This document shows, piece after piece, positions 8,856 through 41,783 of a stretch of DNA of 61,697 nucleotides. The DNA is from a virus. The notes under the pieces are model-generated. The model worked only from the letters and a program-made list of their open reading frames with translations, did not search any database and was not told the DNA's origin. A program made the position numbers and the translations under genes. The first letter of the stretch is position 1. Each line of letters opens with the position of its first letter. The stretch is taken from positions 1-61,697 of IMG/VR virus record IMGVR_UViG_3300009285_009643; one strand, written 5' to 3'.

Positions 8856-10361
8856 ATGGCGAAAAAACTCTCAAAAATACTAGCAAAGCACCGAAGACGA
8901 CAGGCAGCGGCCCTCCCTGTCACTGACCTCAAAGTCAAAGTTCCGTCCTCGGAGCAGGTCATACCCAGATTTTTGGGCAAGGCCAAAAATGCTGTAATAT
9001 CAGACAGATCCTCGAACATAACCAATTCGGCGTTGTCACCGTTCAGTCGCGGTGAGGCGACGATGAACGAGACTATTAAGAAGTTGGTCTTGGCCTCTCC
9101 GGATCTGTTCAACGCCGTACTCAGCAAAGTAACGACCGCCGTGGCTACCTCTTATACGGTCATTGCCTATGACGAAGTCGGACGGGTAGATGAGGACGCC
9201 ACTGAGCTGGCTCAAGCCTTCACTCGCAAACTCGATTACCAGGCCCCGGCCTACGATAAATTTTATTTGTCTACCGATTCCCGCTCCCTGTCCACCTCCC
9301 TGCTCTATGATAATCTCCGCTACGGAGCTATGTGTGCCGAGTTGGTGCTGGACAAGACCAGGAAACCCAGTCACCTGAAGCCGGTAGCCACCAGGCTGCT
9401 CAAGTGGGCTGATGACACCCCGGGGACCTACCCGGTTTACAAAGGGCCCGACGCTGATGTGCCCCTCAACTTCCCGACAATATTTTACTCAGCTTCACTG
9501 AATGATTCGGAAAGCCCGTATGCTGACAGCCCGCTGCAGGCCGCCATTCAAGCCTGCCTTTGGGACTTTGAATTCACCGACGCCCTGCGTAAGGCTGCTA
9601 TCAAGAACCTGCTCGGTCGGCTGCTGGTGACGATCAACTCAGAGAATTTCCGTAAGACCGTGCCGATTACTGTCCAGGCCGACGTCAAGTTGATGAAAGA
9701 GTACATGGACTCGACTGTCTCCCAACTCGAGGCCCAACTCAACGGACTGGAGCCGGAAGACGCTCTGGTGGTCTTCGACTCGTTACAGGTCACCACCATC
9801 CAGGACAAGAATCGCTCTGAGGATAAATCGATCTCGGTTTTAAAAGACCTGATCAATGGCCGGATCTCGGCCGGCGCCTCCATCCTGCCGTCGATTATCG
9901 GCCGGGGAGATGGCCCTCAGGCCGCCTCAATGGAAGCCCAGCTGTTCGTGGCTTCCTGTACCAAACTGCAGCAAGAGTTAAATATCTTATATTCTCGAGC
10001 ACTTACCCTGTCAGTCAGATTGTTTGGCAAGCCAGTAACTGTGCGGTTCAAATACGCCGAGGCTAACCTCCGGCCGGAACTTGAACTGTCCTCATTCAAG
10101 GCTGTCAACCAATCCACCATCCTCGAGCAGCTGTCACTTGGCCTGATCTCCGATGTCGAGGCCTCAATCATGCTGACCGGCACCTTGCCGCCCAAGGGGT
10201 ATGTGCCCAAATCCGGCACTATGTTCAAGAATTCCTCACCAAACGCCGGCGGCGTCAACGATTATTCCAATACCTCAGCCACTACTTCGGCCAAACCGAA
10301 CAGTGGCCAGAATCAGAAGGCTGGTGGAGACACCAAGTCACCGGGAGTGAAATCGAAATGA
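8856..10361 (+). CDS. Portal protein
   Basis: The dodecameric portal forms the DNA channel at the prohead vertex. Of 501 residues, the central part resembles DUF935/Mu gp29-like portals: a helical crown and stem region ending with the QAASMEAQLFVASC segment and LGLISDVEASIMLTGTLPP, a motif shared by this group. The C-terminus is a polar, Ser/Asn/Gly-rich tail. The ATG at 8856 has no ribosome site. An in-frame ATG at 9063 (MNETIKKLV) is preceded by GTGAGG and may be the true start, which would remove 69 basic residues. It sits between terminase and the head protease, with a four-base overlap downstream. Confidence 0.85.
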   Translation: MAKKLSKILAKHRRRQAAALPVTDLKVKVPSSEQVIPRFLGKAKNAVISDRSSNITNSALSPFSRGEATMNETIKKLVLASPDLFNAVLSKVTTAVATSYTVIAYDEVGRVDEDATELAQAFTRKLDYQAPAYDKFYLSTDSRSLSTSLLYDNLRYGAMCAELVLDKTRKPSHLKPVATRLLKWADDTPGTYPVYKGPDADVPLNFPTIFYSASLNDSESPYADSPLQAAIQACLWDFEFTDALRKAAIKNLLGRLLVTINSENFRKTVPITVQADVKLMKEYMDSTVSQLEAQLNGLEPEDALVVFDSLQVTTIQDKNRSEDKSISVLKDLINGRISAGASILPSIIGRGDGPQAASMEAQLFVASCTKLQQELNILYSRALTLSVRLFGKPVTVRFKYAEANLRPELELSSFKAVNQSTILEQLSLGLISDVEASIMLTGTLPPKGYVPKSGTMFKNSSPNAGGVNDYSNTSATTSAKPNSGQNQKAGGDTKSPGVKSK

Positions 10362-13629: not shown

Positions 13630-15297
13630 TTATTGTACCTCCATCACCCACCGCTTCTTCCCGCAGTCGTATATCCTGTACCACCCGTTTCTAAGACAAT
13701 TTTGGTGTTCTGACTCCTCTGGGCGGAAGTCTATGTCTTCCCTGGCCGCCAGTCTGGTTCTGCTAAAGTGATTCTTTGGTTCAACCATCTGGTTCTTGCT
13801 ATATTTGTAGTCTGGATTCAACTCTTTCTCTAAAGTGAATCCAAGCCTCTCATACATCTCCCCAGTGAACCACCTGTTATCTGAGTAACTTATAAGTTTC
13901 CTGCACTCCGGATGAGACCTGAGGAACATCTTTAACAGGCGGCTAGCACCACCCGCCACCCTACAACAAGAGGCAAATCTACGAAGCTCCCATAAGCCGA
14001 CCGAAGAGTTTCCTCTAATTGATGTGGCCCTGCTGAAGGACATCGCACATACCACTTGATTGTTTATTGTAAGCGCCCCAACCCAGCAACCTGTCACTGT
14101 TCCTTGTAAGTGATTTTCGTTAAAGAATTTCGTTGCCCATAAATCAGATGAGCGACCAATCAACACAGTGCATTTTCTTGCAAAGTATCTCTCATCGTTT
14201 ATCCCAAGAATGTGGGCCAAGGTTTTCTTAACTACCGTTATATCTTCTTTGTCACTTATATGAATAAGCCTGATCCCCGTTGCAAGACAATCTGTTTGCT
14301 TCCTCTTCATGTGCCATACGGGATCTTTGTTGAATCTTTCAGAGTGCCATATTGTGCCATTGTACTCTATGCCTATGTTCTTCTCTCTAACAAGGATGTC
14401 TATTTCTCTGCCGTTGAGTATCTTCCTGTCCTTCCCCTCTGTTTCATAAAATTCAGATAAAAAGGCGCGAATCTCATCCTCTTTCTTGCTGATGTGTTGC
14501 CCACAGGTTTGACATCCACATCCTCCAAGATGCTTGCCTGGGGATTGGAGAAATTCCCCATGTTTTTTACAGACTATTTTTACTTTCGCAGCATTATTCT
14601 TTCCGTATTTGACTAGGGAATAGTCGTAAGTGTCTCCGTGGACCTCTCTTGCCAGCTTTATGAAGTCAGCTGTCCCACTCTTTCTCAACTCTCCACCGCT
14701 CCAGTCTCCACATGCAGGACAGCCAGATTTATCCAGATGTACATTTGGAGTCTGTCGAAATTCACCATGAGTTGGACAAACTATTGTTACTGGAGTCACA
14801 CTGTTCACATACTTTGCCTGGGTATATATGTAAGTGTCTCCATGTATTTTTCTGGCTCTGGATATGAATTCCTCAGTACTTAGTGTGAGGTTTTTTCCTA
14901 TTCTAATCCTCCCACATTGGGTACATCCCTGTCCACACAGATGTCCGTTCGGGGAAAGATCAAACACCCCGTGCAGTGGGCAGACTATCTTTACTTTTTC
15001 AATAGCTTTTCGGTATTCGACCAAGGAGTAGTCATAGAAATCTCCGTGAACAGCTTGAGCTTTTTTAACAAAGTTTTCAGCACACGCCCTACTCCTGCCA
15101 AGGTTGGATTTACCGCCACTGCAGGATTTACAGCCGTGTCCATTTGCGTGGGAATAGGGGTCCTGTAGGAATGCCCCGTGTTCAGGACAGATAATAGTGA
15201 CTTTGGTGTGGTCAGACACTTTCTCTGTCACTCGAGAGTAGTCATAGAAATCTCCGTGAGCTTTTCTGGACCTTTCGACGAATCTCTCAACATTCAT
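13630..15297 (-). CDS. Free-standing homing-endonuclease-like protein with four zinc repeats
   Basis: Likely cuts DNA to spread its own gene. The 555 residues begin with four repeats of about 55-65 residues, each with the pattern A-x-x-x-H-G-D-x-Y-x-Y followed by I-V-C-x-x-H-G-x-F-x-Q-x-P-x-x-H and a G-C-x-x-C end. These look like DNA-reading zinc modules. A nuclease domain follows (SKKEDEIRAFL, GREIDILVREKNIGIEYNG, IWHSE), as in Vsr-like PD-(D/E)XK homing enzymes of T-even and other phages. The C-terminal 190 residues resemble the associated acetyltransferase-like DNA-binding tail (SYSDNRWFTGEMYERLGF). It is transcribed against the virion operon and coupled to the RHH gene upstream. Confidence 0.8.
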   Translation of the reverse strand: MNVERFVERSRKAHGDFYDYSRVTEKVSDHTKVTIICPEHGAFLQDPYSHANGHGCKSCSGGKSNLGRSRACAENFVKKAQAVHGDFYDYSLVEYRKAIEKVKIVCPLHGVFDLSPNGHLCGQGCTQCGRIRIGKNLTLSTEEFISRARKIHGDTYIYTQAKYVNSVTPVTIVCPTHGEFRQTPNVHLDKSGCPACGDWSGGELRKSGTADFIKLAREVHGDTYDYSLVKYGKNNAAKVKIVCKKHGEFLQSPGKHLGGCGCQTCGQHISKKEDEIRAFLSEFYETEGKDRKILNGREIDILVREKNIGIEYNGTIWHSERFNKDPVWHMKRKQTDCLATGIRLIHISDKEDITVVKKTLAHILGINDERYFARKCTVLIGRSSDLWATKFFNENHLQGTVTGCWVGALTINNQVVCAMSFSRATSIRGNSSVGLWELRRFASCCRVAGGASRLLKMFLRSHPECRKLISYSDNRWFTGEMYERLGFTLEKELNPDYKYSKNQMVEPKNHFSRTRLAAREDIDFRPEESEHQNCLRNGWYRIYDCGKKRWVMEVQ

Positions 15298-28889: not shown

Positions 28890-29567
28890 ATGACGCGCAT
28901 AGACTTTAGACTTGATCGAATACCGAATCCAGACGAACGGAGTAGAAATTATAGTGTTTATGCCGCTGCCCCGAGTCGGGAGATAATCTCCAGGGTCTGG
29001 TTAACTCACGGATATCTCGATCAGGGTCAAGAAGGGGCGTGTACGGGCTTCGCCGTGACCAACGGTCTGTTGGCTGAACCTCATATGGGTTCTCTCGATG
29101 TGTTCACTAATGAGTTCGCTCGAGAGAAGATCTACTACGAAGCCCAGAAAGTGGATAGGTTCCCTGGCGGGGAGTACCCAGGAGCCAAACCCAGAATGGG
29201 CGGTACCGGTGTTGTCGACTCCGTTAAACAGGCCCACAAACAAGGTTATATAGAAAGCTACCGATCATCGTTTTCCTTCAATGAGTTTCTGGTAGGCCTC
29301 AGTTATTATGGCCCGGCAGTAATTGGTGTTAACTGGTATGAGGGGATGTACAACACTGATCATCACGGGATGATCAAAATCTCTGGCCGGGTCTCTGGCG
29401 GTCACTCTGTTTTGGTATGCGGGGTGAACATCCACTCTCAAGTCTTCCGTATCAAGAATTCCTGGGGCAAGCTGTGGGGGGTGGACGGACTGTGCCTGAT
29501 CTCATTCTCTGATATGGAGCGCTTGTTGAAAGAAGATGGCGAAGCCATATTTATGGTAAAGAGATGA
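28890..29567 (+). CDS. Papain-like (C1) cysteine peptidase
   Basis: The 225 residues show a full C1A active site: oxyanion Gln and nucleophile Cys51 in YLDQGQEGACTGFAV, His172 in GGHSVLVCGV, and Asn190 in RIKNSWGKLWG. No signal peptide or prodomain is visible, so the enzyme is either virion-borne or acts in the cytoplasm. Possible roles are processing of fibre or exported proteins, or attack on host surface proteins during entry. It sits directly after the fibre genes and before the holin-like genes. The family is not common in phages. Confidence 0.8.
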   Translation: MTRIDFRLDRIPNPDERSRNYSVYAAAPSREIISRVWLTHGYLDQGQEGACTGFAVTNGLLAEPHMGSLDVFTNEFAREKIYYEAQKVDRFPGGEYPGAKPRMGGTGVVDSVKQAHKQGYIESYRSSFSFNEFLVGLSYYGPAVIGVNWYEGMYNTDHHGMIKISGRVSGGHSVLVCGVNIHSQVFRIKNSWGKLWGVDGLCLISFSDMERLLKEDGEAIFMVKR

Positions 29568-29605: not shown

Positions 29606-29659
29606 GACTTAATTTGAGCTATGTGCAATGAACTTGATCTCTTACCTACAAGGGACGAA

Positions 29660-30184
29660 ATGGAACCACCAAAAGAGTTAAACATCAGTTTCTGGGGACT
29701 AATTCTAACGATATGTGGAATACTCCTTGGTTGGGTAGGAGGAATGATTCGGACAGCCTGGTCTCTCAGTAAGTTTGATTCTCGAGTTATTTACGTGGAG
29801 GCTGAGTTGGAAGATTTGAAAGAAGAGAAGATCCTTAGGCGGGTAGAGTCGTTGGAAAAAATAGCCGGAAGTTTTGCTGGGCTGATGGCCATCGCCAATA
29901 TGTCAGAGAAACTCGAACAGATTCCCCAGATCGTCTCCGACACAAAAATAGCAGTGGAAGATCTCCGTAAGATAGTCTACAAAGAGCGAGGGGGTCTGAA
30001 TGTTATCACGGTTGACGACTGTAAAGAGCAACAATTTCACTGTACAGCTTTATACAAGAAGGATCTTGAAGCCATCAAAGCTGGACTGGACCAAGTTCTT
30101 AACAGCACCTCTCACGAGGCCATAACGAGTCTTCACAAGTCAGTCATTAGGTTGGAATCAACTGTATCAAAAATGGGGAATTAA
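29660..30184 (+). CDS. Membrane-anchored coiled-coil protein, 174 residues
   Basis: Start placed at ATG 29660, with AAGGGACGAA before it. An in-frame ATG at 29621 has no ribosome site. One membrane helix (SFWGLILTICGILLGWVGGM) near the N-terminus is followed by a long coiled coil (DLKEEKILRRVESLEKIAGS). This inner-membrane-anchored design resembles i-spanins or hemolysin-XhlA-type lysis accessories. The holin-like gene follows two bases after the stop. Function in lysis is inferred. Confidence 0.55.
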   Translation: MEPPKELNISFWGLILTICGILLGWVGGMIRTAWSLSKFDSRVIYVEAELEDLKEEKILRRVESLEKIAGSFAGLMAIANMSEKLEQIPQIVSDTKIAVEDLRKIVYKERGGLNVITVDDCKEQQFHCTALYKKDLEAIKAGLDQVLNSTSHEAITSLHKSVIRLESTVSKMGN

Positions 30185-30185
30185 A

Positions 30186-30467
30186 ATGGCAGACACCAAA
30201 AATATCAATGAAGCACTGGAAATAGGCAAGCAGATCGCTGACCCTGCCATTTGGAAAAACAGAGGACTCCTTGCAAATAAGATTGCTGCGGTGATTACCC
30301 TGATTCCCGGTATCCTAAAATCATTCGGTTACGATGTGCCGCTGATGGAGGACGATCTGGTGATTGCCTTGTCGAGTGCGATTTCAGCTTTGCTGTTTTT
30401 ACTGAATAACAAATTGGCTCAAGCCACATCCAAGAAAATTGGCACAAAAAATACAGACGAGGTTTAA
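30186..30467 (+). CDS. Putative holin, 93 residues
   Basis: Two hydrophobic helices (IAAVITLIPGILKSFG around 33-48 and LVIALSSAISALLFLL around 57-72) are joined by a short acidic turn, with a charged Lys-rich C-terminus. This is the class II holin layout: holins pore the inner membrane to release endolysin. It directly follows the membrane-anchored coiled-coil gene. The matching lysozyme is 8 kb downstream, an unusual separation. Confidence 0.55.
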   Translation: MADTKNINEALEIGKQIADPAIWKNRGLLANKIAAVITLIPGILKSFGYDVPLMEDDLVIALSSAISALLFLLNNKLAQATSKKIGTKNTDEV

Positions 30468-30469
30468 CC

Positions 30470-30760
30470 ATGGCAATCACAGTAAAAATAGCAGCAACCA
30501 CCGCAGCCGATTCTGGAGCCGGCACCGAGTTCATCACCACTGCGCCGTTTGTGCTATATGGCGATGACTTTGGGGTTGATGAACACGCCATTCTCACCCG
30601 ACTCGGGCCGTCAGGAGCTCATAAGCCGATGACGAATAAGGATGGAGTCATCATGGTATCGGCTTTTCCCAACACAGTCTTGGTCGATGCCTTTGGAACT
30701 TTTCGGCTGATCAAGACAGTCACGGCCGTCGCGGCTTCTGTTGGATACGAGGAGCAGTAA
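30470..30760 (+). CDS. Hypothetical beta-rich protein, 96 residues
   Basis: Starts just after the holin-like gene and ends at the start of the next. Ala/Thr-rich with PFVLYGDDFGVDEHAILTRL in the middle. No signal peptide. It resembles small tail or fibre accessory proteins in composition, but no family is recognised. Confidence 0.6.
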   Translation: MAITVKIAATTAADSGAGTEFITTAPFVLYGDDFGVDEHAILTRLGPSGAHKPMTNKDGVIMVSAFPNTVLVDAFGTFRLIKTVTAVAASVGYEEQ

Positions 30761-31174
30761 ATGATTTCCCGTGTACCTGGAAGGCCAGTTGCGAGGAGTT
30801 TAGGGAGCAGGAGTAAACGTCTATTTTCCTCGTTCGGCAGTAAAACTGGAGTTCCCCTTTCTACGGTCATTACCTCTCGGGCGGTCAGTGCCTCTTCCTC
30901 CGGTGCAATCTCAATTACAGTAGGGACAGGAGAGTATCAAATTAACGGTGGAACGTGGGTGTCGACTCCAGGAACCGTTGTTCTTGGCGATCTGATACGG
31001 GCCAGACTGACGAGTTCTGGTATACACGAAACGGCGGTCTCCCTCGAAATAACTATTAATGGCGTAGCCGATACGTTCACTGTTACAACTCATGTAGAAG
31101 CAGTAGCAGAACTGGCTCTAACGCAAGCTGGCGAGTTGATTATGAATCAAGACGGAACATACTTGGAATGGTGA
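30761..31174 (+). CDS. Hypothetical protein with Ig-like beta domain, 137 residues
   Basis: A basic, Arg/Ser-rich N-terminus precedes a domain with the pattern ITVGTGEYQINGGTW, V-x-x-G-D-x-I-x-A-R-x-T-S-S, and ADTFTVTTHV. This is a recurrent beta-sandwich module of exported and surface proteins. The C-terminal LALTQAGELIMNQDGTYLEW is fibre-like. It starts immediately after the stop of the previous gene. Likely a fibre or surface accessory protein, by pattern only. Confidence 0.55.
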   Translation: MISRVPGRPVARSLGSRSKRLFSSFGSKTGVPLSTVITSRAVSASSSGAISITVGTGEYQINGGTWVSTPGTVVLGDLIRARLTSSGIHETAVSLEITINGVADTFTVTTHVEAVAELALTQAGELIMNQDGTYLEW

Positions 31175-31180
31175 AGTAAC

Positions 31181-31954
31181 ATGAAGAAATTAGTTTTTGC
31201 AACAATCCTCTTGCTATTATCAACCCAACTTAGTTTTGCCGACAAACGGGTAACGGACCTCACAGCACAGACCGAGGCTATTTCAGCAAGTGACTATATT
31301 CCCGGCATAGATGTCAGCGACACCACGGAGAACGCAGCGGGGTCAAGCAAGAAAATCACTTGGACTCAGGTGGGTTCTTACCTCGCTACCTTGTTCCCCA
31401 CACACGCAACGTCAGACGGTAATTATTATGCATCGAAAGACGGGACCTGGGCTAGTTTAACCGGGGTTTTCTTGACTCCTTCTGGTAACACCACGGGTAC
31501 CGCAGGGGGGCTCGCCGCGCAGTATATAGACTGGAGTGCGACGACAGGCGGAACTTCAATAGCCAATAAGCCTGTTCTGACCAAAGATATAGGTTGGGTT
31601 ATTAAAGAGTCTGATGTTGCGACTGCCGTTGCGGACGGAAAGATGGCGTTTGCGGTACCGGCAACCATGAATGGCATGAACCTCACCGATTGCACTGCTG
31701 CAGTTGCCGATCTGAACTCCGCCGCTTCAGGCGCCACTACTGTGGTCTTGAGAAGGGTTCGAGGTGTCACCGCAGCTGACATGACCTCGACGGGAGTGAC
31801 GGTTGAGTATAATATCTACTCCGCTTCGGACGAGACCGTAGACACAGCAAATGACGACCTCGCTACTGGGGATCTATTGTACCCAGATGTCAATGCAGTG
31901 ACTTCAGCAGCGCAAAAAGGACTGTCGTTTACCTGTATTTTTAGTCTACCCTAG
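31181..31954 (+). CDS. Signal-peptide protein with tail-fibre-like body, 257 residues
   Basis: The N-terminus MKKLVFATILLLLSTQLSFA is a textbook Sec signal peptide with cleavage after SFA. The body starts KRVTDLTAQTEAISASDYIP and ITWTQVGSYLATL, the typical opening of phage fibre modules, and it ends in a beta domain (VVLRRVRGVTAADM, LLYPDVNAVTSAAQ) also typical of fibre tips. A fibre-like protein that is exported is unexpected, since virion proteins assemble in the cytoplasm. It may decorate the cell surface or periplasm and act in receptor blocking; this is inference. Confidence 0.65.
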   Translation: MKKLVFATILLLLSTQLSFADKRVTDLTAQTEAISASDYIPGIDVSDTTENAAGSSKKITWTQVGSYLATLFPTHATSDGNYYASKDGTWASLTGVFLTPSGNTTGTAGGLAAQYIDWSATTGGTSIANKPVLTKDIGWVIKESDVATAVADGKMAFAVPATMNGMNLTDCTAAVADLNSAASGATTVVLRRVRGVTAADMTSTGVTVEYNIYSASDETVDTANDDLATGDLLYPDVNAVTSAAQKGLSFTCIFSLP

Positions 31955-31977
31955 ATAGGAGTTCAGCGAGGAAGCAA

Positions 31978-32904
31978 ATGGATGACGTATTGCACGACAA
32001 TAAGTATTATTCATTTCACAAACACAGCGATGGTTCAGGGATCCCCGTTTTCATCCTCCCACCATTCGCCGGCAGGGGTGGATCGGTAACCGATAAACTC
32101 GTCGCAAAATGTGTTGCATCCGGTCGAACCGTTTACCGATACGAACTGAAGTCCGCCACGCAAGAGACAAAAGATTTATCTATTGGTGGACTCCTCCAGA
32201 TAATCCGCTGGTGCCACGATACCATTATAACCGAACACGGCAGCCGGGAGATCAACCTGCTCGGGACATGCCAGGGAGGGTGGCTCGCTGCAATGTATGC
32301 CAGCCTGTACCCTACTGAAATCCATAAAATATCCCTCTTTGCCGCGCCGATCAACACCAGGACTGGCTCTGACAACGCAATTGAACGCTATTGCAAAACA
32401 ATTAATATACCTATGCACCGGGCAATGGTAGCGATGAATGGCGGTATCCAGGCCGGTATGTCCCAGTGGATGGCGTTTGCCCTGATGGCTCCTGAGTTTG
32501 TGTTTTTTGGCAGGTATTGTGATATGGCGAGGCATATCTTCAACGGCGACCAAAAGGCCATGGAGAAATGGAGCGCAGTCAACGAGTGGTACGACTCCCC
32601 TAGAGATCTTGCTGGCGTGTGGTTTCTTGACGCCCTGGAGAACCACTTCACCAAGAATAAACTCTATGAAGGAACCTGGGAGATCTATGGAAAGAAGATC
32701 GATCTCTCGCGGATCACTTGCCCCGTTTATGTTTTTGCCGGAGGTGACGACGATATCACCTCTGTTGAACAGACTAAAGGTATTCTCGACAAGGTATCTT
32801 CAAAAAGTAAACAGTTCGTACTGTTTCCAGAGGCAGGGCACACCCGGGTCTTCACAGGCAAAAAAGAGCTTGACCAGTTTGCTGAAATATTCTTCAATTG
32901 CTGA
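31978..32904 (+). CDS. Alpha/beta hydrolase with Cys nucleophile (PhaC/DUF3141-like), 308 residues
   Basis: The lipase box is GTCQGG (96-101) with Cys98 as nucleophile, the G-x-C-x-G-G form found in polyhydroxyalkanoate synthases and DUF3141 proteins, not the usual Ser. The acid is likely one of Asp257-259 (FAGGDDDITS) and the base His288 (PEAGHTRVF), giving a C-D-H triad. An oxyanion strand VFILPPFAGRGG is present. No signal peptide, so cytoplasmic. It may polymerise, depolymerise or move hydroxyacyl groups, or modify lipid. At 308 residues it is slightly shorter than class III PhaC. It is surrounded by exported-protein genes. Confidence 0.7.
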   Translation: MDDVLHDNKYYSFHKHSDGSGIPVFILPPFAGRGGSVTDKLVAKCVASGRTVYRYELKSATQETKDLSIGGLLQIIRWCHDTIITEHGSREINLLGTCQGGWLAAMYASLYPTEIHKISLFAAPINTRTGSDNAIERYCKTINIPMHRAMVAMNGGIQAGMSQWMAFALMAPEFVFFGRYCDMARHIFNGDQKAMEKWSAVNEWYDSPRDLAGVWFLDALENHFTKNKLYEGTWEIYGKKIDLSRITCPVYVFAGGDDDITSVEQTKGILDKVSSKSKQFVLFPEAGHTRVFTGKKELDQFAEIFFNC

Positions 32905-32912
32905 GGATAGTC

Positions 32913-33038
32913 ATGAGAAAATACCACAGGTTACGTAAGATAGGTGATGTAAGTTATTTGTTATTGGTGAGCACCTTGGCGATAGCGGCAGTAATAATTT
33001 TTATAGTTGATATTTGGTTGAGTATTAAACCTCTTTAG
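32913..33038 (+). CDS. Single-span membrane peptide, 41 residues
   Basis: ATG at 32913, nine bases after the hydrolase stop, with a GAGGA site. A basic N-terminus (MRKYHRLRKIGD) precedes one long hydrophobic helix (SYLLLVSTLAIAAVIIFIVD). Inner-membrane insertion with a positive cytoplasmic end is expected. Role unknown; small membrane peptides near holins can modulate lysis. Confidence 0.5.
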   Translation: MRKYHRLRKIGDVSYLLLVSTLAIAAVIIFIVDIWLSIKPL

Positions 33039-33084
33039 GGTAAGTAATAAGAAACTGGTAATTAACCATAATAAAAGGGGAACT

Positions 33085-33402
33085 GTGATGATGAAAAAAG
33101 GTGGTCTTGCACTGTTTGTTGTTGGGCTTCTGTTTCAAGTTGGATGTGCAAACAAATTGACCTCGATCTCGTTCAAGGCCGATAACGGAGCGAAGAACGT
33201 AGTAACGATCACCGCCCCGGGGGCCACTGTGAATCTTGTCACTGAACAGAAAAACAATCCGGTTGTCGTCCCCTCTCTGTCGGACCTTAAGAATTTTATC
33301 CCTGGTATCACAGCACTCCCTGACCTGACAGACACCACCCCAGTCACTCCTGATCCGGTCCTGCCTGATCTCCCGGTCAATCCTTCCGAACCCACATTGT
33401 GA
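33085..33402 (+). CDS. Lipoprotein, 105 residues (possible outer spanin)
   Basis: The signal sequence MKKGGLALFVVGLLFQVGCA has the lipobox V-G-C-A; the following Asn-Lys would favour the outer membrane. After a short beta-like part the C-terminus is Pro/Asp-rich (PDLTDTTPVTPDPVLPDLPV), as in o-spanins and other Pro-rich linkers. If a spanin, its inner partner could be the coiled-coil protein at 29660-30184. The alternative is a surface-exposed exclusion lipoprotein. Three possible Met starts lie next to one another at the front. Confidence 0.6.
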   Translation: MMMKKGGLALFVVGLLFQVGCANKLTSISFKADNGAKNVVTITAPGATVNLVTEQKNNPVVVPSLSDLKNFIPGITALPDLTDTTPVTPDPVLPDLPVNPSEPTL

Positions 33403-33409
33403 GACTGAG

Positions 33410-34123
33410 ATGGACATCGCTGAAATCAAAAAAGAAGTCGCCCTGTTGTATCAATATATCGACGGGGCACAGAAGTATCTGGTAGCCGTGAAAGCCCAGG
33501 TCGATAAACTGGTTGCTCTGGCTACCAACCAGATACCTACTGACCCTTCAACTCCAGTTGACCCCTCACCCACAACAAAAGAATTGCCTGGTACCGTCTT
33601 GTGGGAGGATTCTTCTGACGCTGGAGAGGTCGAGTACCGAGGAAAAGCCGTGATGATTTTTCCAAAAGAATATGAAGGAAAAATCACCAAGGTAGTCGCT
33701 GCCGGCGAGACTGCTTTTCACGCTGCTTCCTGGAAAGGCCAGCCCACATTCAGACTCTCAAAGCCAGGCAGCGAATATAAGCGGCCGATTACCTTGGCCA
33801 TCACTACCACTGCTGGGAATTTTACAAAAGTGATCAATGAAGGCTCATCGCAGCCCACCGGCAATAACCAAGAAACAGTCGCTCCTTCGTCATATGGCAA
33901 TGGTAACCGTGGCAATGCTCGTTTCAGCAAACCTGGTAATGCCTATGGAAAAAATATCCCAGTTTTCATTGATGGTGTATTGAAGCTCACTGTTTCTGAC
34001 GGGTCAAAACGAACCGAAGGAAGAAATGGCCTGATATGGAAACCGGTCAGTGATAGTAACGGAAGGTTGGTAGTCGTTGGTGAGTATAACGTGAAATTCA
34101 AAACCTGCACTATCAAATGGTAG
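33410..34123 (+). CDS. Hypothetical protein with repeated beta motifs, 237 residues
   Basis: A short N-terminal coiled coil (EIKKEVALLYQYIDGAQKYL) and a Pro/Thr linker (DPSTPVDPSPTTKE) lead into a beta-rich body. FRLSKPGSEYKRPITLAI recurs in diverged form as RFSKPGNAYGKNIPVFI, so the body has an internal repeat. No signal peptide. The arrangement coil-linker-beta module suits a surface or fibre accessory protein. Unknown family. Confidence 0.55.
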   Translation: MDIAEIKKEVALLYQYIDGAQKYLVAVKAQVDKLVALATNQIPTDPSTPVDPSPTTKELPGTVLWEDSSDAGEVEYRGKAVMIFPKEYEGKITKVVAAGETAFHAASWKGQPTFRLSKPGSEYKRPITLAITTTAGNFTKVINEGSSQPTGNNQETVAPSSYGNGNRGNARFSKPGNAYGKNIPVFIDGVLKLTVSDGSKRTEGRNGLIWKPVSDSNGRLVVVGEYNVKFKTCTIKW

Positions 34124-34126
34124 ATC

Positions 34127-34582
34127 ATGCTTAAGCAGATACTTTTTCTCATCCTCCTGACCTCTTCCGCCCAGGCAATGCAGGCGACGGTTGTCAGTGT
34201 CGTTGACGGAGACACCCTCAAAGTTGTTAACGCCAATGGTCAGGCTACCATCAGACTGTATGGCGTTGACAGCCCGGAGAAGAAGCAGCCGTTTGGCCTG
34301 GCCGCCAAATCATTCACCAGTTCTTTCGTTGAGGGAAAGCCAGTTGAGATCACCCCTATGGATACTGATCGGTACGGTAGGACCGTGGCTGTGATCAAGA
34401 TCGGGACCCAGTGTCTGCAAGAACAACTACTGCTCTCCGGCTACGCTTGGGTATACCCTCAGTATTGTCTCAAGCCTTTCTGCAGTACTTGGACGACTTT
34501 TCAGGATATTTCAGTTGGTAACCGAGTCGGGCTGTGGGCGGACCCGTCACCTGTACAGCCATGGGAATGGAGAAAACAATGA
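34127..34582 (+). CDS. Secreted thermonuclease (SNase family), 151 residues
   Basis: The signal peptide MLKQILFLILLTSSAQA is followed by a complete staphylococcal-nuclease-like fold: SVVDGDTLKV (Ca-binding Asp), IRLYGVDSPEKKQ (catalytic Arg and acidic residues) and DTDRYGRTVAVIK (second Arg). It hydrolyses DNA and RNA and should act in the periplasm or outside. In a phage this could destroy incoming rival phage DNA in the periplasm, digest host DNA released at lysis, or degrade extracellular DNA of a biofilm. A possible disulphide forms between the Cys pair near the C-terminus (YCLKPFC). Its stop overlaps the next start. Confidence 0.8.
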   Translation: MLKQILFLILLTSSAQAMQATVVSVVDGDTLKVVNANGQATIRLYGVDSPEKKQPFGLAAKSFTSSFVEGKPVEITPMDTDRYGRTVAVIKIGTQCLQEQLLLSGYAWVYPQYCLKPFCSTWTTFQDISVGNRVGLWADPSPVQPWEWRKQ

Positions 34583-35730
34583 ACCATAACTTTGGAACAG
34601 TCATGAGAAAACAAATTATGCTGGGCTTGGTCGCCCTCAGTTTACTAACGGTCGGGTGTGCCCAGAAAGAGCGAACCTTTGGGGCCCAACAAACCGTTCT
34701 GGGTGGAACAGGAGTCTACTGGGGGACTGAGCGGGCGAAGATTAACGCTAACTTCACTGAGCTCTACACCGAGACAGCCAAGGCCACCAAAGAGTGGGTT
34801 TCTGGAAAAGTTTACACCACCAATAATGAATCAGTTGTCCACGGTGGAAAACATTACATCTGCTCCTCCGGTCACACCGCAGATTCAACTACTGAGCCAG
34901 GAGTCGGAGCCTCATGGGCCACAGTATGGGCGGCGGATGTCCTCGGGAATATCAAAGTTTACAATCAGGACACTGCACCGGTGAGTTGTGTTGATGGTGA
35001 CATCTGGGTGGACACCAACGGGACAACTGGACAGAGAGTTTCAACCTGCGAAGAGTCGACGTGGGTGGCTCAGGCCGGCGGTAGCGGTGACATAACCTAC
35101 CCGTTGGCAGGAGTTCCTACAAGTACTGGCGAGGCGTGGGGAGATAGTTACGCTGTAGGAACCGGTGCAAACGAACTTTTGAAATTGAACGAATCAGCCC
35201 AAATCCCGGCTGTCCCCGGCACACTCTTAACAGCCACGTTTACCGGGACGACTCTCAGCACATACACCACTCTCAAAAATGCTATACAGGGACTCGGCGA
35301 TGTGGTGGACGGCTCTGCTGTCGATCTGACCTTTGGGGACGGGTTCGATGTGGCTGCCGGCGCCGTGACGCTTGATCTCACCGAGGTCCATGTCGCAACA
35401 AATATCCCCAAATGCATCACGATATCAGCGGCCACCTCAGCCTCTGACTTCGTCGTTACCAGCTTTCCTTATGCCGTGACCGTAGGACGAATCCGGGTGA
35501 CACAGATCGGAGCTACCAACGTCATTGGCGGAGTGGATGAGTGCCTCAGTTCCGGCGCAGCCTGCGGGGCGCTTGATTCTGATATTACAGCGACAACCGC
35601 GCAGGCAACCGACGACGGAGCACTCACAGACGCAGCCATTGCCGCCAACGGAATACTTTTCTGGCACACCACTTCAGTTTCTGGAACGAACGGACAACTG
35701 ATGGTATGTGTCGACGTAACTGCAGATTGA
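34579..35730 (+). CDS. Lipoprotein with tail-fibre-like and carbohydrate-binding modules, 383 residues
   Basis: The ATG at 34579 overlaps the nuclease stop (ATGA). A second ATG at 34603 begins the signal sequence MRKQIMLGLVALSLLTVGCA, with lipobox T-V-G-C-A. The mature protein starts with a fibre-like opening (GTERAKINANFTELYTETAK). A Trp-rich module follows (WVSGKVYTTNNESVVHGGKH, YICSSG) like small carbohydrate-binding domains in tail proteins. It ends in a beta tip module with Cys pairs (DECLSSGAACGALDSDITAT). A lipid-anchored fibre-like protein should sit on the inner or outer membrane. Superinfection exclusion by mimicry is a plausible guess. Confidence 0.65.
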   Translation: MNHNFGTVMRKQIMLGLVALSLLTVGCAQKERTFGAQQTVLGGTGVYWGTERAKINANFTELYTETAKATKEWVSGKVYTTNNESVVHGGKHYICSSGHTADSTTEPGVGASWATVWAADVLGNIKVYNQDTAPVSCVDGDIWVDTNGTTGQRVSTCEESTWVAQAGGSGDITYPLAGVPTSTGEAWGDSYAVGTGANELLKLNESAQIPAVPGTLLTATFTGTTLSTYTTLKNAIQGLGDVVDGSAVDLTFGDGFDVAAGAVTLDLTEVHVATNIPKCITISAATSASDFVVTSFPYAVTVGRIRVTQIGATNVIGGVDECLSSGAACGALDSDITATTAQATDDGALTDAAIAANGILFWHTTSVSGTNGQLMVCVDVTAD

Positions 35731-35737
35731 GGTAGGT

Positions 35738-36436
35738 ATGAGAAACTTTCTTGCTTTAGTACTTTTGATTCTGTTTACGGCGACATCCGGAATGGCTGAG
35801 GGGTTGGTGCTTGGCTGGCCTCCTGCCGCTGGTGGCGGCATATTCTATCAGGACACGTTCACCGAAACGACAAACACCGAATTGGCTGCACATACCCCAG
35901 ATGTCGGCACAGGATCATATGTAAAACGCGACGGAGACACTGTAACCGTCACAGCCTCAACTGATACGCTGAATATCGCTAATAATGTATCAGAGCTGTT
36001 TTATTTTTCACAAGCTCCAACGTCTGCAAATTATACTGTTACAGCGCTAGTTGAGGCGCAGTTTGCCTCCATAACGGGTATCGTAGGGTCGTGCGCCAGA
36101 ATGGATTCCTCGTCCGGGTATGACGGGTACTGCGTAGAATTTCAACTAAGCACCGGCCCGACCTCTACCCTGCTCATTAAAAGGTATGACAACGGAACAG
36201 GGACCACGTTGCACTCATACGACATGACTGCACTGGGGGTTGTACATAGCACGTGGTATCAAATGGTCATTTCGGTTGAAGGGTCTAATATCACTGGTAC
36301 TATAAAATCAAGCGATGGTGGAACAACAATCTATACCTATACAGTAGTAGGTGATACGACATATTCTGACGCTGGTTATGCTGGTGGGATAATTTACGAT
36401 GACGCTATGGTTATTACATCTATTGAGGCTCAATAA
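35738..36436 (+). CDS. Signal-peptide protein with LamG/concanavalin-like fold, 232 residues
   Basis: The Sec signal MRNFLALVLLILFTATSGMA leads into a beta-rich protein. The pattern of short strands, a CARMDSSSGYDGYCVEF segment with a likely disulphide, TLLIKRYDNGTGTTL, and a D-D-A-M-V-I end is typical of laminin-G/concanavalin-like lectin folds, often carbohydrate-binding. It may bind host or biofilm polysaccharide outside the cell. Its stop overlaps the next start by one base, so the two secreted proteins are probably co-translated. Confidence 0.6.
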   Translation: MRNFLALVLLILFTATSGMAEGLVLGWPPAAGGGIFYQDTFTETTNTELAAHTPDVGTGSYVKRDGDTVTVTASTDTLNIANNVSELFYFSQAPTSANYTVTALVEAQFASITGIVGSCARMDSSSGYDGYCVEFQLSTGPTSTLLIKRYDNGTGTTLHSYDMTALGVVHSTWYQMVISVEGSNITGTIKSSDGGTTIYTYTVVGDTTYSDAGYAGGIIYDDAMVITSIEAQ

Positions 36437-38694
36437 TGATGAGATATATATCCATAATTTTTATCTGCTTGTGTCTTCCGTCTTTTGCTGATGCTGCGTG
36501 TAATTGCGGATCAACAAATTCAGCCTCCCCTTGCACTGGACAGTCGATATCGGTGACGGTCACAGCGGGAACACCAAACGGCGGAACGGCATACGATGGC
36601 GTGTATAATTGGACTTTCAACTCTGGAGGCGGTGACGCTCGTTGTGGCCAGTTTGCAAACGGTGATTATTGGGTTGCACCCGCTGTTGGACAAACGACAG
36701 TGACGGTGACGGCGGTTACGAGCACAAGCCCAGGTACACTCAGGGTGGATGCTGATCCAACAACAGAATCAACAGGGTTAGGGAGTGGCAGCGGGACATA
36801 CGGTAATTATAACGCGGCAGAAGATATAATTCCGACACTTCCGCAATCGTACGGGGGAATAACCTCTCTCGTCGGGGCTCTGCGACGAAATACCACGGTT
36901 GAGGGCGGATGTAGCACCGGGCTTGCCGAATGTCAGGATTCTTACAATGCCGTCACGGTCCTTTCTACTGTACCTGAAAATGCAGGTTCAACAGTGATCC
37001 GCCCGAATATAACAGGGGAGACAAAAGAGTTAATCTCCATGTCAGCGTTCGATTGGTCGAGAGTACCATCAAAATCCTATTTGACTGGAACCGACGCAAC
37101 CGGACTTGCAAACATCAAGAGTAGATGGTCACACAGTACGGAAATGTTTGGAGTTTGGAATACTGTAGGGACTGATGCCGGAAGTTTATCTGAGGGCGGC
37201 AGGGCTTGGAGGTCGCATACACTGATAAATGCCTACGGCGCAGGAACGGCGGCGGTTTGGTATAACGATTTGATGGTTCTTTTTTCCGACGACAACACAA
37301 TTGAGGAGAAAAAACCAGCGCTTGCCGCAATGCTTGCATATGGTCTTGATCTTTATCATACGATATACGACCCTCCCGCCGGATTAGTGCGCCGCTGGAA
37401 TACAGGGGCAACTCAGCATCCTGGAAAATTTTTACCAGCGGTTATGCTCGGAGCGCTTCTTACCGATACGACAAAAGCCGATGTGTTGAAAACGGCGGTA
37501 GATCATGTGCGGGACTACCCGACACAAGGACCGTTTGAAATCGCTCAAATTCATCCCGGCGCAAACGGTCCGATATGGGGTGACGAGCCAGCTCTCAGTG
37601 GGACGTATTTTACTGGGTCATATTGGGGTAATCTCCTAGTTTCGCAATGCTATGACCTAGCGCCCGACCGAGTAATGTATGATTATTATGTTTTGAGCGC
37701 ATGGAAATCTTTCTCGCTCCCTATCGGGACGTTCGAAACTGGGACTCTGCATTTTACGTTTTGGAGTTTGCCGAACGGATCAACGGGTGATTTTAAAATT
37801 CGCAACGTGGCGATTGATGGTACTCCGATTAATTTTAATAGCGTAACTCTCGTAAATTACAATAACGCCACGGCAAATGGGACAATTGAGGACGCCGGGG
37901 CTACATACTCGATAGCGGCAGGGCAGACTGTTAAAAAACAGACCAGCGAAACATACACGGTCGGGGCTGGAAGCATCCTAACTTTTGACCTATATCAAAC
38001 CGCCCACGGATTGAGTGGGGCTGTAGGGTTTGAGGAAAACACCACTTACGATGCAACAAAAAGATTGATTCAGGTCAGCGGAACAGTTCAGCAGTCGAAT
38101 ATGTTTAATAAAGGATGCATCGCCGCGCTAGGGGCTAAAACCATGTGGGATTTTCACGGGTATATTGACGGGCCTCCTAACCGACCCGGTACTGGTTATA
38201 TGGGGTCATCGTTCAGTATGGAGAAAGGAATAGCCGCCGCTATGTGCCTGATGCCGGAGATAAATAGCATTGTAAATTATCCAGAGATTATCCAGTACGT
38301 AGATAGGGTTTTGAGCAGCGGGATAAAAGCATCTCCTGACCCGTGCGTAACACCTGACACTCGAGAGAATCTAACTACGTGCGACCCGTACCGTAATACT
38401 GGATGCTCTTATTACGGGTCAACGTGGGGGCCGGTAGATAAAACCAGCAAAACCTCAGCCTGTATAACCACAGCCACACCACCGTATACCAAAATCGGAA
38501 GGTTTTCAGATGCTGGCGGGGTAGATGGTGGTTCGATATCCACATCATACACTTCAAGCCAAGTCGAGGCAAACTGGGCAACAATCCGCGCCGAGTTAGG
38601 GGCTCCCCCGCCAGACCCACCAATTCCGCCAGGGCTTGAAGGCAAACGTACTATCGGTGGTCTGTGGATCAAGTCAATACCGAATAATAATTAA
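36436..38694 (+). CDS. Large secreted protein of unknown enzymatic type, 752 residues
   Basis: The signal peptide MMRYISIIFICLCLPSFADA ends before CNCG. Residues 30-110 look like a beta-sandwich (SISVTVTAGTPNGGTAYDGV). A long helical part with many aromatic and His residues (WSHSTEMFGVWNTVGTDAGS, DLYHTIYDPPAGLVRRW, EIAQIHPGANGPIWGDEPAL) resembles the alpha/alpha-barrel core of secreted polysaccharide-degrading enzymes. No catalytic pattern could be fixed. Residues about 425-490 may be a second beta module. The last 100 residues are Cys- and Pro-rich. Base composition is more AT-rich than in neighbouring genes, hinting at recent acquisition. Confidence 0.55.
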   Translation: MMRYISIIFICLCLPSFADAACNCGSTNSASPCTGQSISVTVTAGTPNGGTAYDGVYNWTFNSGGGDARCGQFANGDYWVAPAVGQTTVTVTAVTSTSPGTLRVDADPTTESTGLGSGSGTYGNYNAAEDIIPTLPQSYGGITSLVGALRRNTTVEGGCSTGLAECQDSYNAVTVLSTVPENAGSTVIRPNITGETKELISMSAFDWSRVPSKSYLTGTDATGLANIKSRWSHSTEMFGVWNTVGTDAGSLSEGGRAWRSHTLINAYGAGTAAVWYNDLMVLFSDDNTIEEKKPALAAMLAYGLDLYHTIYDPPAGLVRRWNTGATQHPGKFLPAVMLGALLTDTTKADVLKTAVDHVRDYPTQGPFEIAQIHPGANGPIWGDEPALSGTYFTGSYWGNLLVSQCYDLAPDRVMYDYYVLSAWKSFSLPIGTFETGTLHFTFWSLPNGSTGDFKIRNVAIDGTPINFNSVTLVNYNNATANGTIEDAGATYSIAAGQTVKKQTSETYTVGAGSILTFDLYQTAHGLSGAVGFEENTTYDATKRLIQVSGTVQQSNMFNKGCIAALGAKTMWDFHGYIDGPPNRPGTGYMGSSFSMEKGIAAAMCLMPEINSIVNYPEIIQYVDRVLSSGIKASPDPCVTPDTRENLTTCDPYRNTGCSYYGSTWGPVDKTSKTSACITTATPPYTKIGRFSDAGGVDGGSISTSYTSSQVEANWATIRAELGAPPPDPPIPPGLEGKRTIGGLWIKSIPNNN

Positions 38695-38705
38695 GAGGGT
38701 TGAGA

Positions 38706-39179
38706 ATGAACGTTGGAAAAAACTTCATGCGGTTGCTGATCGATGCTGAAGGCTTCAAAACTCAGGTATATCCAGATAGAGCAGGATATTTGACTATCGG
38801 CATCGGCCATAAACTCACTCAGTCAGAACTTTCTTCGGGGAAGATCCTGATCAACCACCAACCAATCAAGTACCGGAATGGCCTGACTGATGATCAGGTA
38901 TACTCCCTGGCCAGACAGGACGTGGCTTGGGCGACTGAAGCCGTCAGCAAATCAGTCAAAGTACCATTGACCCAGAATCAGTTCGACGCTTTGGTGTGTA
39001 TGACCTTTAACATCGGCGCCGATGCTTTTCAGGGGTCTACTCTGCTGGAGGAATTGAATCTGAGACGGTATGACCAAGTCCCTATTCAAATGGTTCGGTG
39101 GCACTGGTCCGGCGGCGTACCCCATGTTCTGGATAGCCGCCGGCAGAAAGAGATTTTGGTGTGGAACACTGAGGATTAG
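38706..39179 (+). CDS. Endolysin, T4-type lysozyme (GH24)
   Basis: Degrades peptidoglycan for lysis. The catalytic Glu15-Asp24-Thr30 (DAEGFKTQVYPDRAGYLTIGIGH) has the exact spacing of the T4/P21 lysozyme triad. LTQNQFDALVCMTFNIGADAF is the usual second conserved helix. Start taken as ATG 38706 behind AGAGGG. A TTG two codons upstream is a weaker option. No signal peptide, so it needs a holin. The stop overlaps the convergent ThyX stop by four bases. Confidence 0.9.
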   Translation: MNVGKNFMRLLIDAEGFKTQVYPDRAGYLTIGIGHKLTQSELSSGKILINHQPIKYRNGLTDDQVYSLARQDVAWATEAVSKSVKVPLTQNQFDALVCMTFNIGADAFQGSTLLEELNLRRYDQVPIQMVRWHWSGGVPHVLDSRRQKEILVWNTED

Positions 39180-39988
39180 ATTTTATCCCAACCCAAAGAA
39201 ATAAACTCATCTCTCAAAGGCGTCATCAGATCCCGCATCAGTGGATCGGCGCCTTTTGCACATCGTTGTCCGAACATATGTTGCCACTGAGGCAGCGGGG
39301 CGGTAATGATAATCTGGGTAGCGGTGCTGTTCGGTAGATGGTCCCGGGCTTCCTGGGGAGATTGTCCGTACTGTCTAGCCTCCCGATAAGCCTGTTCACA
39401 GGCTGCCATTGATGCCAGCCAGTGGTCATATTGCGGATTCATTTTCTGCTTATCGTAATACCTGACCGGGAGAATGAACTCTAGATCCTTTGTGTGGTCC
39501 ACATATCTTTGACTAAGTTGTGCGAACCCACAAGGGCGATGGCGAACAAGTTCATGCGACATTGCCCGATTGGTCGTAAAATCCACCGATACCGACTGTG
39601 CCCAGTTGGGAATATTCTCCACCACTTGGGCACAGCGCAGTCTGTTGATGTCGTGGATGGAGGTGAAGCCTAATGCTTCGATGTACGCCCGGTAATTACC
39701 AGCATAAATCCAAGGGCCTGTGCCCTCTCTACTGCTGTAAATGAAATTACTGTCGTCAAGCGCTGCTTGCTGGCATCTGGATGCCATGACAAAGAGAGAG
39801 TGATCAAGCATGGCAAGGTGCTTCTTGTCAAAGAGCATGTCGACAAACTTGAGATACGATTCCTCAGTCGTCTTTTCCCCACTCTGCCAGCACACCCGGC
39901 CGATTTCTTCAATCCGCTTCAGCGCCCCAACGTGGTCTGTCGGACACGGTCCCATTATTCGGTAACTTTGTTTGATTACTTTTGGCAT
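39176..39988 (-). CDS. thyX: Flavin-dependent thymidylate synthase
   Basis: Makes dTMP from dUMP with FAD, NADPH and methylene-tetrahydrofolate. The signature R-H-R-x7-S is present: R149-H150-R151 and S159 in ELVRHRPCGFAQLSQRY. DHSLFVMASRCQQAALDDSN and the NYRAYIEAL region fit the family, as does the length of 270. In phage it supplies dTTP for replication and frees synthesis from host ThyA. It is the last gene of the leftward module, converging on the lysozyme gene with overlapping stops and no terminator. Confidence 0.9.
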   Translation of the reverse strand: MPKVIKQSYRIMGPCPTDHVGALKRIEEIGRVCWQSGEKTTEESYLKFVDMLFDKKHLAMLDHSLFVMASRCQQAALDDSNFIYSSREGTGPWIYAGNYRAYIEALGFTSIHDINRLRCAQVVENIPNWAQSVSVDFTTNRAMSHELVRHRPCGFAQLSQRYVDHTKDLEFILPVRYYDKQKMNPQYDHWLASMAACEQAYREARQYGQSPQEARDHLPNSTATQIIITAPLPQWQHMFGQRCAKGADPLMRDLMTPLRDEFISLGWDKI

Positions 39989-40420: not shown

Positions 40421-41434
40421 TTAACGAATCTCCTCACCTAGGCACCACCCCCCAAATGCCTGACCTTCGCCGATTTCCCACTCAGGAGCAGTACGAATTT
40501 CTACGAAACTGTCAAGCAGGTTTCTCATAGCGTCCAGCGCCTTGAGGAACAGGTATACCCGCTCCAACACGAAGCCGTCATCTTCTTCCTGTCCCATTTT
40601 CGGGAGCTTCACACCTTTGTAATAGAAGGTAGAGGCGGCGAAAGTCAGCTGCACAGAAATGTCGCCCTCTATTGCAAGCACAAGGTCCATCTGTTCTACC
40701 TGCTTGCCAGTGGCGAGGGCGTCCATGGCCTCATGGTAAGAGTTCACACAAGCAACCTTTTCGCCCGGGGCCGCAGACTCCAACTGGATCTTGTCGCCTA
40801 TGTCGACTATTAGTCCACCATCATTGAACTCAGCATTGCCTGTATCACTCCGGAACCACAGCCAAGTGAGGAACTCCCGGGGATTCACCTCATCTGGCAG
40901 TACACTCTCAGGACACACTGGCTCAATGTTTATCCCGAACGTTTCGGTGAATAAACCCTGCAGTAGCTCTTGGGCCTGCTTGCCGGTGGAGAGCAGCAGC
41001 GCTCGGTTACCGTCCAGGTCCCAGACGACCTCGAACACCGACGGGGTCGGCTTGGCCTTACGGACGAGCTCCGTTTTAACTCGCTCCTTGATCTCAATCT
41101 TACGGCTCCGGGAAAGCCTGGGTATCTGCTTCTCTTGCCGTTCCTGGTCAAAGGCCATGGCCACATACTTCTTTAGGACCACTGAAGGGACTCTGCGCTC
41201 GTCAACCCGCAGGGACATGACCACGTAATCGCCCACGATGGGGTCAAAGTCAGAGTTGAACATATTGAGTGGCGATACCCAGCCGATCGAGTAGTCATCA
41301 AAAGTGTCTTCGATGTCCCGGAAGGCAAAAGCGGGTACACGCTCTCTGATAAAGTGGTGGACGTCTACCTCCGGCAGCTTGCCGGTGGGGACAGAAAATT
41401 CTACGAAACTGGTGGAACCTTTAAGCAATGTCAT
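40421..41434 (-). CDS. rdgC: RdgC-like recombination-associated protein, 337 residues
   Basis: The start ATG 41434 is preceded by GGAGAACAAA; the frame runs further upstream without a start signal. The sequence has the RdgC layout: F-x-D-x-x-x-x-x-G-W-V near residue 60 (YSIGWVSPL), R-x-P-S-V-V-L-K-K-Y around 90, K-x-x-L-V-R-x-A-x-P (RVKTELVRKAKPTPSVFEVV), and a C-terminal G-K-Q-V-x-x-M-D-L half. RdgC binds double-stranded DNA as a ring and restrains RecA. A phage copy could protect replicating ends or limit host recombination. Length agrees (about 300). Confidence 0.75.
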   Translation of the reverse strand: MTLLKGSTSFVEFSVPTGKLPEVDVHHFIRERVPAFAFRDIEDTFDDYSIGWVSPLNMFNSDFDPIVGDYVVMSLRVDERRVPSVVLKKYVAMAFDQERQEKQIPRLSRSRKIEIKERVKTELVRKAKPTPSVFEVVWDLDGNRALLLSTGKQAQELLQGLFTETFGINIEPVCPESVLPDEVNPREFLTWLWFRSDTGNAEFNDGGLIVDIGDKIQLESAAPGEKVACVNSYHEAMDALATGKQVEQMDLVLAIEGDISVQLTFAASTFYYKGVKLPKMGQEEDDGFVLERVYLFLKALDAMRNLLDSFVEIRTAPEWEIGEGQAFGGWCLGEEIR

Positions 41435-41444
41435 TTTGTTCTCC

Positions 41445-41783
41445 TTAAACTGAATGATGTAATATTTTGTCTGTTGACTTATCAAGACACGCTCGACAGA
41501 TCAGATGTGACTCTGGACCAAGGTACGGAACCATCTTCCCGCAGCCACCGGCACAGTAAGCTTCCTTTGGTATGAAGCAGTTGGCATTCTTGGCAAACTG
41601 TTCTAGGCTATCAGTTTCTCTGTTCGGCGGGTGCGGTTGGTCCAAAGCCCTAGCTCTCTCCTCCTCCAAAATCTCTAGCCGTTCCTTCAAAAATCCAAGG
41701 GTATTTGAGATCAAAATAACAGCTACAGTCAGTATCACAACACAAAGCACCAGAATGACTATTGCAAACTGTATTCGTATCAT
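41445..41783 (-). CDS. Membrane-anchored zinc-ribbon protein, 112 residues
   Basis: Start at ATG 41783 behind GGAGGGGAAGG. One long membrane helix (IRIQFAIVILVLCVVILTVA) near the N-terminus is followed by a coiled coil (LKERLEILEEERARALDQ) and a zinc-ribbon-like CAGGCGKMVPY with CRACL at the end. It should sit on the inner membrane with the ribbon in the cytoplasm. Function unknown; it could tether replication or repair proteins to the membrane. Confidence 0.55.
   Translation of the reverse strand: MIRIQFAIVILVLCVVILTVAVILISNTLGFLKERLEILEEERARALDQPHPPNRETDSLEQFAKNANCFIPKEAYCAGGCGKMVPYLGPESHLICRACLDKSTDKILHHSV

Follow-up and report, generated by a model that had tools for sequence, protein, structure and literature searches.

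Phage lysis is usually regarded as done once the membrane, the wall, and the outer membrane have been breached, and the canonical Gram-negative cassette consists of holin, endolysin, and spanins. Lysis proteins that travel by the host Sec route are known, including the exported endolysin fOg44 Lys44 and the SAR endolysins (PMC6116005). From the bacterial side, WceF of Pantoea stewartii is a glycosidase of an exopolysaccharide (EPS) cluster with a tailspike-like fold (PMC7949094). Here we analyze a block of genes at positions 30470 to 38694 of the viral IMG/VR record IMGVR_UViG_3300009285_009643 (61,697 nt; the whole stretch is referred to as the window), located between a holin candidate and a lysozyme-type endolysin. 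A sequence-only reading had seen in this block an export-related system with no described phage counterpart. Indeed, we found no description, in the openly licensed full-text literature, of a phage module combining exported fibre-like proteins, a nuclease, and an EPS-locus protein, but parts of the block are not unique and recur in other viruses.

We give roughly even chances to the interpretation that the block serves as an accessory Sec-exported arm of the late lysis or release region and helps progeny escape by attacking the exopolysaccharide and DNA that surround the dying cell. Sequence comparison shows predicted export signals, an intact nuclease active site, EPS-locus relatives of the protein encoded at 36436, a conserved gene order, and proximity to endolysins. 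Taken together, the active site, the signals, the EPS-locus relatives, and the endolysin link fit an exported extension of lysis. We infer polysaccharide cutting by the 36436 protein, late expression, and release as the purpose.

Predicted export signals across the block

Export signals were scored with a home-made Sec/lipobox rule that weighs n-region charge, the hydrophobic stretch, the residues at −3 and −1, and the lipobox, with a score of at least 9 taken as a pass. The open reading frames (ORFs) named in the sequence-only reading are all present in the window, and the five Sec or lipoprotein signals that it had noted, plus a sixth at 36436, all pass, so that 6 of the 10 block genes reach the threshold (31181, 33085, 34127, 34579/34603, 35738, and 36436; genes are named by their first position). 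Elsewhere in the genome only three ORFs pass (11239, 41445, and 49059), at least two of which are doubtful as signal peptides, 11239 being a probable false positive and 41445 a membrane anchor. The enrichment in the block relative to the rest of the phage is significant (hypergeometric P = 3e-5). Chance hydrophobic N termini were rejected as the source of the signals on two controls: no antisense ORF out of 81 passes, and 1.4% of shuffled N termini do. Because 30470, 30761, 31978, and 33410 carry no signal, the block is enriched for export and not, as had been suggested, wholly devoted to it. Gene packing is tight, with the 34579 start located in the nuclease stop codon (ATGA) and the 36436 start in that of 35738. 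We regard the predicted export signals, together with conservation of the module, as well supported. The genes of the block and its flanks are as follows (L numbers are our handles for related loci).

28890 to 29567, plus strand: papain-like (C1) peptidase, no signal peptide (SP) (Pfam Peptidase_C1 5e-5; PHROG 16701 peptidase 2e-49)
29621 to 30184, plus strand: coiled-coil protein with one transmembrane (TM) segment (34% identity to L007 13637-14221, in the equivalent location)
30186 to 30467, plus strand: small hydrophobic protein, holin candidate from position and hydrophobicity
30470 to 30760, plus strand: small protein, no signal, no family in the window family searches
30761 to 31174, plus strand: small protein, no signal, no family in the same searches
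31181 to 31954, plus strand: fibre-like protein with Sec signal (SP score 9.9; predicted cleavage after MKKLVFATILLLLSTQLSFA)
31978 to 32904, plus strand: cytoplasmic PhaC/PhaZ-like alpha/beta hydrolase, Cys nucleophile GTCQGG (PHB_depo_C 9e-14)
33085 to 33402, plus strand: small Pro-rich lipoprotein, GTG start (lipobox FQVG/C, atypical Q at −3)
33410 to 34123, plus strand: 33410-family protein, no signal here (family alignment; 50 viral loci)
34127 to 34582, plus strand: Sec-exported thermonuclease, SNase fold (Pfam SNase 1.1e-17)
34579 to 35730, plus strand: fibre-like protein with lipoprotein signal LTVG/C (SP score 11.7; alternative starts GTG 34534, ATG 34603)
35738 to 36436, plus strand: Sec-signal protein of 232 amino acids (aa), middle member of the cassette (SP score 9.9)
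36436 to 38694, plus strand: Sec-signal, Cys-rich, EPS-locus-type secreted protein of the GQFANGDYW family, 752 aa (homology, signal)
38700 to 39179, plus strand: lysozyme-type endolysin, signal-less (TTG 38700 or ATG 38706; PHROG 7 endolysin 4e-32)

The thermonuclease and its recurrent setting

The nuclease noted in the sequence-only reading is clearly recognizable. Its SNase domain scores 64.9 bits against a curated cut-off of 21, and alignment identifies the equivalents of R35, E43, and R87 together with the Asp ligands; the R, E, and R equivalents recur in each of the 11 nuclease relatives. Its predicted export signal (rule-based score 9.75) is also kept across loci. Among the nuclease loci, mean pairwise identity is 50% in the signal region and 70% in the mature region. 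The signals thus drift faster than the mature part, yet they keep a hydrophobic core and an A-x-A type cleavage site.

Using a profile of the 33410 protein, we recovered 50 viral loci, which reduce to 26 once near copies are discounted; many of these contigs come from a few metagenome sets and may represent a limited number of lineages. The recurring order is a small lipoprotein, a 33410-family protein, and a Sec-exported thermonuclease. The lipoprotein gene lies directly upstream of the 33410-family gene in 21 of the 26 loci, and the 33410-family members carry a Sec signal in 16 of 26 and a zinc-ribbon start instead in 9. An SNase gene follows in 10 of the 24 loci with enough downstream sequence, 8 of these scoring as signal-bearing; 11 further distinct viral loci hold it in all, 163–813 bp downstream of the 33410-family gene. 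At least one further large exported protein is encoded upstream in 12, and at least two in 10, of the 21 loci with 5.5 kb of upstream sequence, where exported fibre-like and beta-helix proteins are often found. Downstream, several loci encode a protein with PLA2-like motifs and an endolysin or cell-wall hydrolase, with the endolysin or hydrolase present in L117, L126, L142, L146, L154, and the window. The block had been taken as an odd insertion between lysis genes. In other phages, too, the genes for the lipoprotein, the 33410-family protein, and the exported nuclease precede an endolysin or cell-wall hydrolase. This turns that view around: the exported genes appear to extend the lysis region.

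The PLA2-like family (GAGxGxGD and HD motifs) occurs near the exported nuclease and endolysin in L006 (13480-14001), L003 (7988-8371), L109, L117, L126, L131, L132, L141, L142, L146, and L154, with no Pfam match among the members scanned. In L101, the ORF at 9907-10152 carries a CCKEHDEY motif.

An exported nuclease could also serve superinfection exclusion, in which exported fibre-like proteins would mask receptors and a periplasmic nuclease would cut incoming phage DNA. The lipoprotein-type fibre-like protein and the nuclease itself are consistent with such a role, as is a different nuclease of L007 (17392-17991), of the HNH (GmrSD_C) type with an N-terminal membrane segment, which lies where the exported SNase is encoded in other relatives. 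The location among lysis genes and the EPS-locus-type protein fit release better, however, and we consider exclusion distinctly unlikely.

The 36436 protein and the fibre-like proteins

Full-length similarity, conserved cysteines, and a signal peptide place the 36436 protein in the GQFANGDYW secreted EPS-locus family. Its relatives in bacterial genomes occupy 50 loci, and the close ones share 40–63% identity over the full length, a signal peptide, and ~12 conserved cysteines. Those whose context was checked lie in exopolysaccharide loci with genes for Wzz, pyruvyl transferase, GT2/GT4/GT28, and sulfotransferase. The recurrence of this disulfide-rich secreted form supports real export. Relatives on viral contigs are few and come from different phages, L002 (65%) and L003 (51%). 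In both, two signal-bearing genes stand ahead of the 36436 homologue, matching the gene order of the window, and a signal-bearing protein of size comparable to the 35738 product fills the corresponding slot in L002, L003, and L006. In the tree, L003 clusters with a locus from a bacterium (97/93), and the window and L002 with one from Desulfobulbaceae (97/97). These supported branches indicate that the family has been exchanged between phages and bacteria at least two times. Residues 407–558 of the window protein form a mostly beta insertion of 152 aa that is absent from the other aligned members.

No sequence relative of the 36436 protein was found in Pfam, NCBIfam, or the PDB. Its own structure model was of limited confidence (pLDDT 62), and the PDB fold search with it was unproductive. 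The model of the L002 relative, from a 46-sequence alignment led by L002, reached a pLDDT of 89.3 and consists of beta strands followed by an alpha-helical part; in BFVD it matched two unnamed viral proteins. A tailspike-type beta-helix depolymerase was rejected as an identity for 36436, as the model lacks a right-handed parallel beta-helix and has no PDB match. From its gene neighborhood, the protein is presumed to act on polysaccharide. The third slot of the cassette in L083 and L084 is taken by a Pfam beta-helix protein, and the beta-helix fold is common among polysaccharide-active enzymes.

The fibre-like proteins raise the alternative that the block encodes virion components, side fibres or tailspikes, which would transit the periplasm, form disulfides as they fold there, and join virions after lysis. 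The proteins encoded at 31181 and 34579 and their relatives bear phage fibre-type segments, such as NFTELY and GGTNATTEAGARTSLG. The N terminus of the 31181 protein, signal peptide included, is 67% identical to a signal-bearing protein of L082/L083, while its C terminus is 45% identical to a signal-less phage protein in L084/L085 and ~60% identical to L006 14811. A fragment search with its mature N terminus against isolated phages gave nonsignificant matches, mostly to fibre or structural proteins, and was not used as proof. The 34579 product shares 30% identity over 211 aa with the signal-bearing fibre L002 7885; scans for close relatives of 34579 and of 18093 found none. In addition, the cassette adjoins head genes in L088 and L119, and cluster J Mycobacterium phages have a GQFANGDYW domain within a tail gene, indicating that the domain can be part of a virion. 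Tailed virions are assembled in the cytoplasm, however, and no N-terminal signal is present on the proteins that probably make up the virion here (18093, 20418, 26314, and 27307, the last its ordinary tail fibre). Moreover, the lipoprotein signal of 34579 would tether the protein to the membrane, and a conserved nuclease and lipoprotein are ill suited to virion fibres. We judge the virion alternative improbable, though it merits more weight than exclusion, chiefly for the C terminus that the 31181 protein has in common with a signal-less phage protein and for the GQFANGDYW domain in a tail gene elsewhere. The description of some block proteins as lectin-like was not confirmed, the only trace being a subthreshold CBM_5_12 match in 34534.

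The cluster J tail genes include Mycobacterium phage Halley gp45 (L090) and Redno2 gp43, whose label "lysin A" is probably wrong. A distant signal-less form of the domain also occurs in a podovirus-like contig.

Relatives, proposed role, and known systems

The nearest tail relatives, L006 (51%) and L007 (50%), have 5–6 and 3 exported genes, respectively, in the equivalent region. An exported FN3-like protein of L006 is 52% identical to a neighbor of the 36436 homologue in the Desulfobulbus elongatus EPS locus, and thus a second EPS-locus gene is shared. When 193 genomes from the D. elongatus class were sampled, 3 contained tail relatives, which provides a lead on the host. In a genome of this class, an integrase-bearing prophage (L101) has related tail genes, and after them come a signal-bearing fibre, two more exported proteins, and a lipoprotein. 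A signal-bearing papain-like peptidase (L099, 11657-13195, minus strand) neighbors a related prophage, again in a genome from that class.

Secreted DNases are encoded by some prophages, such as the streptococcal prophage DNases, and the genes might likewise serve a lysogen through matrix remodeling or nutrient release from DNA. The integrase-bearing prophage with a similar exported set beside its tail genes agrees with such lysogenic conversion. Searches of the window with working controls found neither a tyrosine integrase nor a resolvase (in a record that may be incomplete), and the block lies between tail and lysis genes, on their strand; lysogenic conversion appears very unlikely. Both it and superinfection exclusion are less well supported than virion fibres or an exported arm of lysis.

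If the block is such an arm, the host Sec and lipoprotein machinery would, late in infection, carry its products into the periplasm or outer membrane. The cargo would comprise the thermonuclease, the presumed polysaccharide-active 36436 protein, the small lipoprotein 33085, and the fibre-derived surface- or glycan-binding proteins 31181, 34579, and 35738. Once the cell lyses, these proteins would be released and act on the DNA and exopolysaccharide in its surroundings, so that viscosity falls and progeny come free of matrix and debris. The weakest step is that the exported fibre-like proteins may bind glycans or hold enzymes at the envelope. Among the functions proposed in the sequence-only reading, remodeling (or degradation) of the host envelope and matrix is the best fit, given the secreted thermonuclease and the EPS-locus-type protein.

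Several observations weigh against this interpretation. The export signals rest on a home-made rule and not on SignalP. The signal-less hydrolase 31978 amid the exported genes is not explained by it, and more distant tail relatives are without the block, spanin-like lipoproteins excepted. The L002-relative model had no significant fold match in the PDB, no 36436 homologue with known enzymatic activity was found, and the distant form in the cluster J phages is a signal-less part of a tail gene.

The 31978 product has the Cys nucleophile that the sequence-only reading had assigned to a hydrolase (PHB_depo_C/abhydrolase). Its NCBIfam matches, TIGR01836 (3e-29; 101.9 of 365 bits) and TIGR01849 (45.5 of 300), fall under the curated cut-offs, so a true class III polyhydroxyalkanoate (PHA) synthase or polyhydroxybutyrate (PHB) depolymerase was rejected and the protein is only PhaC/PhaZ-like. 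Relative searches found no phage relatives of it. Of the flanking genes, the papain-like peptidase directly upstream and the lysozyme are as the sequence-only reading had described them, the endolysin being 51% identical to the L007 lysozyme. The putative holin 30186 is unproven; it is a small hydrophobic protein in the right location, with no match in PHROG/NCBIfam-type family searches. We would guess that the 29621 product is an inner-membrane spanin-like or lysis accessory protein and 33085 an o-spanin-like candidate, the two forming a candidate i-/o-spanin pair by anatomy only (TM segment and coil, lipoprotein). Beside the endolysin, the opposite strand encodes ThyX (39176-39988) and an RdgC-like protein (40421-41485). 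A 555-aa DUF723-containing gene on the minus strand (13630-15297) within the plus-strand structural region is a possible inserted element.

With more doubt than confidence, we propose that many uncultivated phages carry a conserved Sec-exported release system, in which phage-fibre proteins retargeted by signal peptides would serve as glycan-binding envelope scaffolds alongside exported nuclease and polysaccharide-active proteins, an undescribed matrix-dismantling extension of lysis. If so, the phage cycle would include a genetically encoded step for release from biofilms and aggregates, one whose genes can be tested, and the Pfam-less 36436 family, with no significant PDB fold match, would be a source of new matrix-degrading enzymes.

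Among described systems, the canonical Gram-negative lysis cassette shares with the block a downstream endolysin, a hydrophobic holin candidate, and a small lipoprotein nearby. Beyond these the block encodes exported proteins, a nuclease and an EPS-locus-type protein among them, and its spanins are candidates only. As with the Sec-exported endolysins, lysis-stage phage proteins would be sent through the host Sec route, but here the endolysin is signal-less and accessory proteins are exported instead. The thermonuclease resembles the staphylococcal thermonuclease family (SNase) in family, active-site residues, and N-terminal signal; it differs in being phage-encoded in a lysis region and in falling under the NCBIfam equivalog cut-offs for known secreted forms. 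Virion-bound polysaccharide depolymerases and tailspikes share the presumed polysaccharide target, and beta-helix proteins occupy the equivalent slot in L083 and L084. In contrast, the exported block proteins carry Sec signals, and the 36436 fold differs (beta-sandwich plus alpha-helical, no PDB match). Halley gp45 has a domain in common with 36436, and the genes for lysin A, lysin B, and holin come right after its own, but it has no signal and is fused to a LamG-like part. Finally, WceF illustrates that an enzyme from an EPS cluster can be related to the depolymerases of phages, though WceF is bacterial and a parallel beta-helix, whereas 36436 is phage-borne and of another fold.

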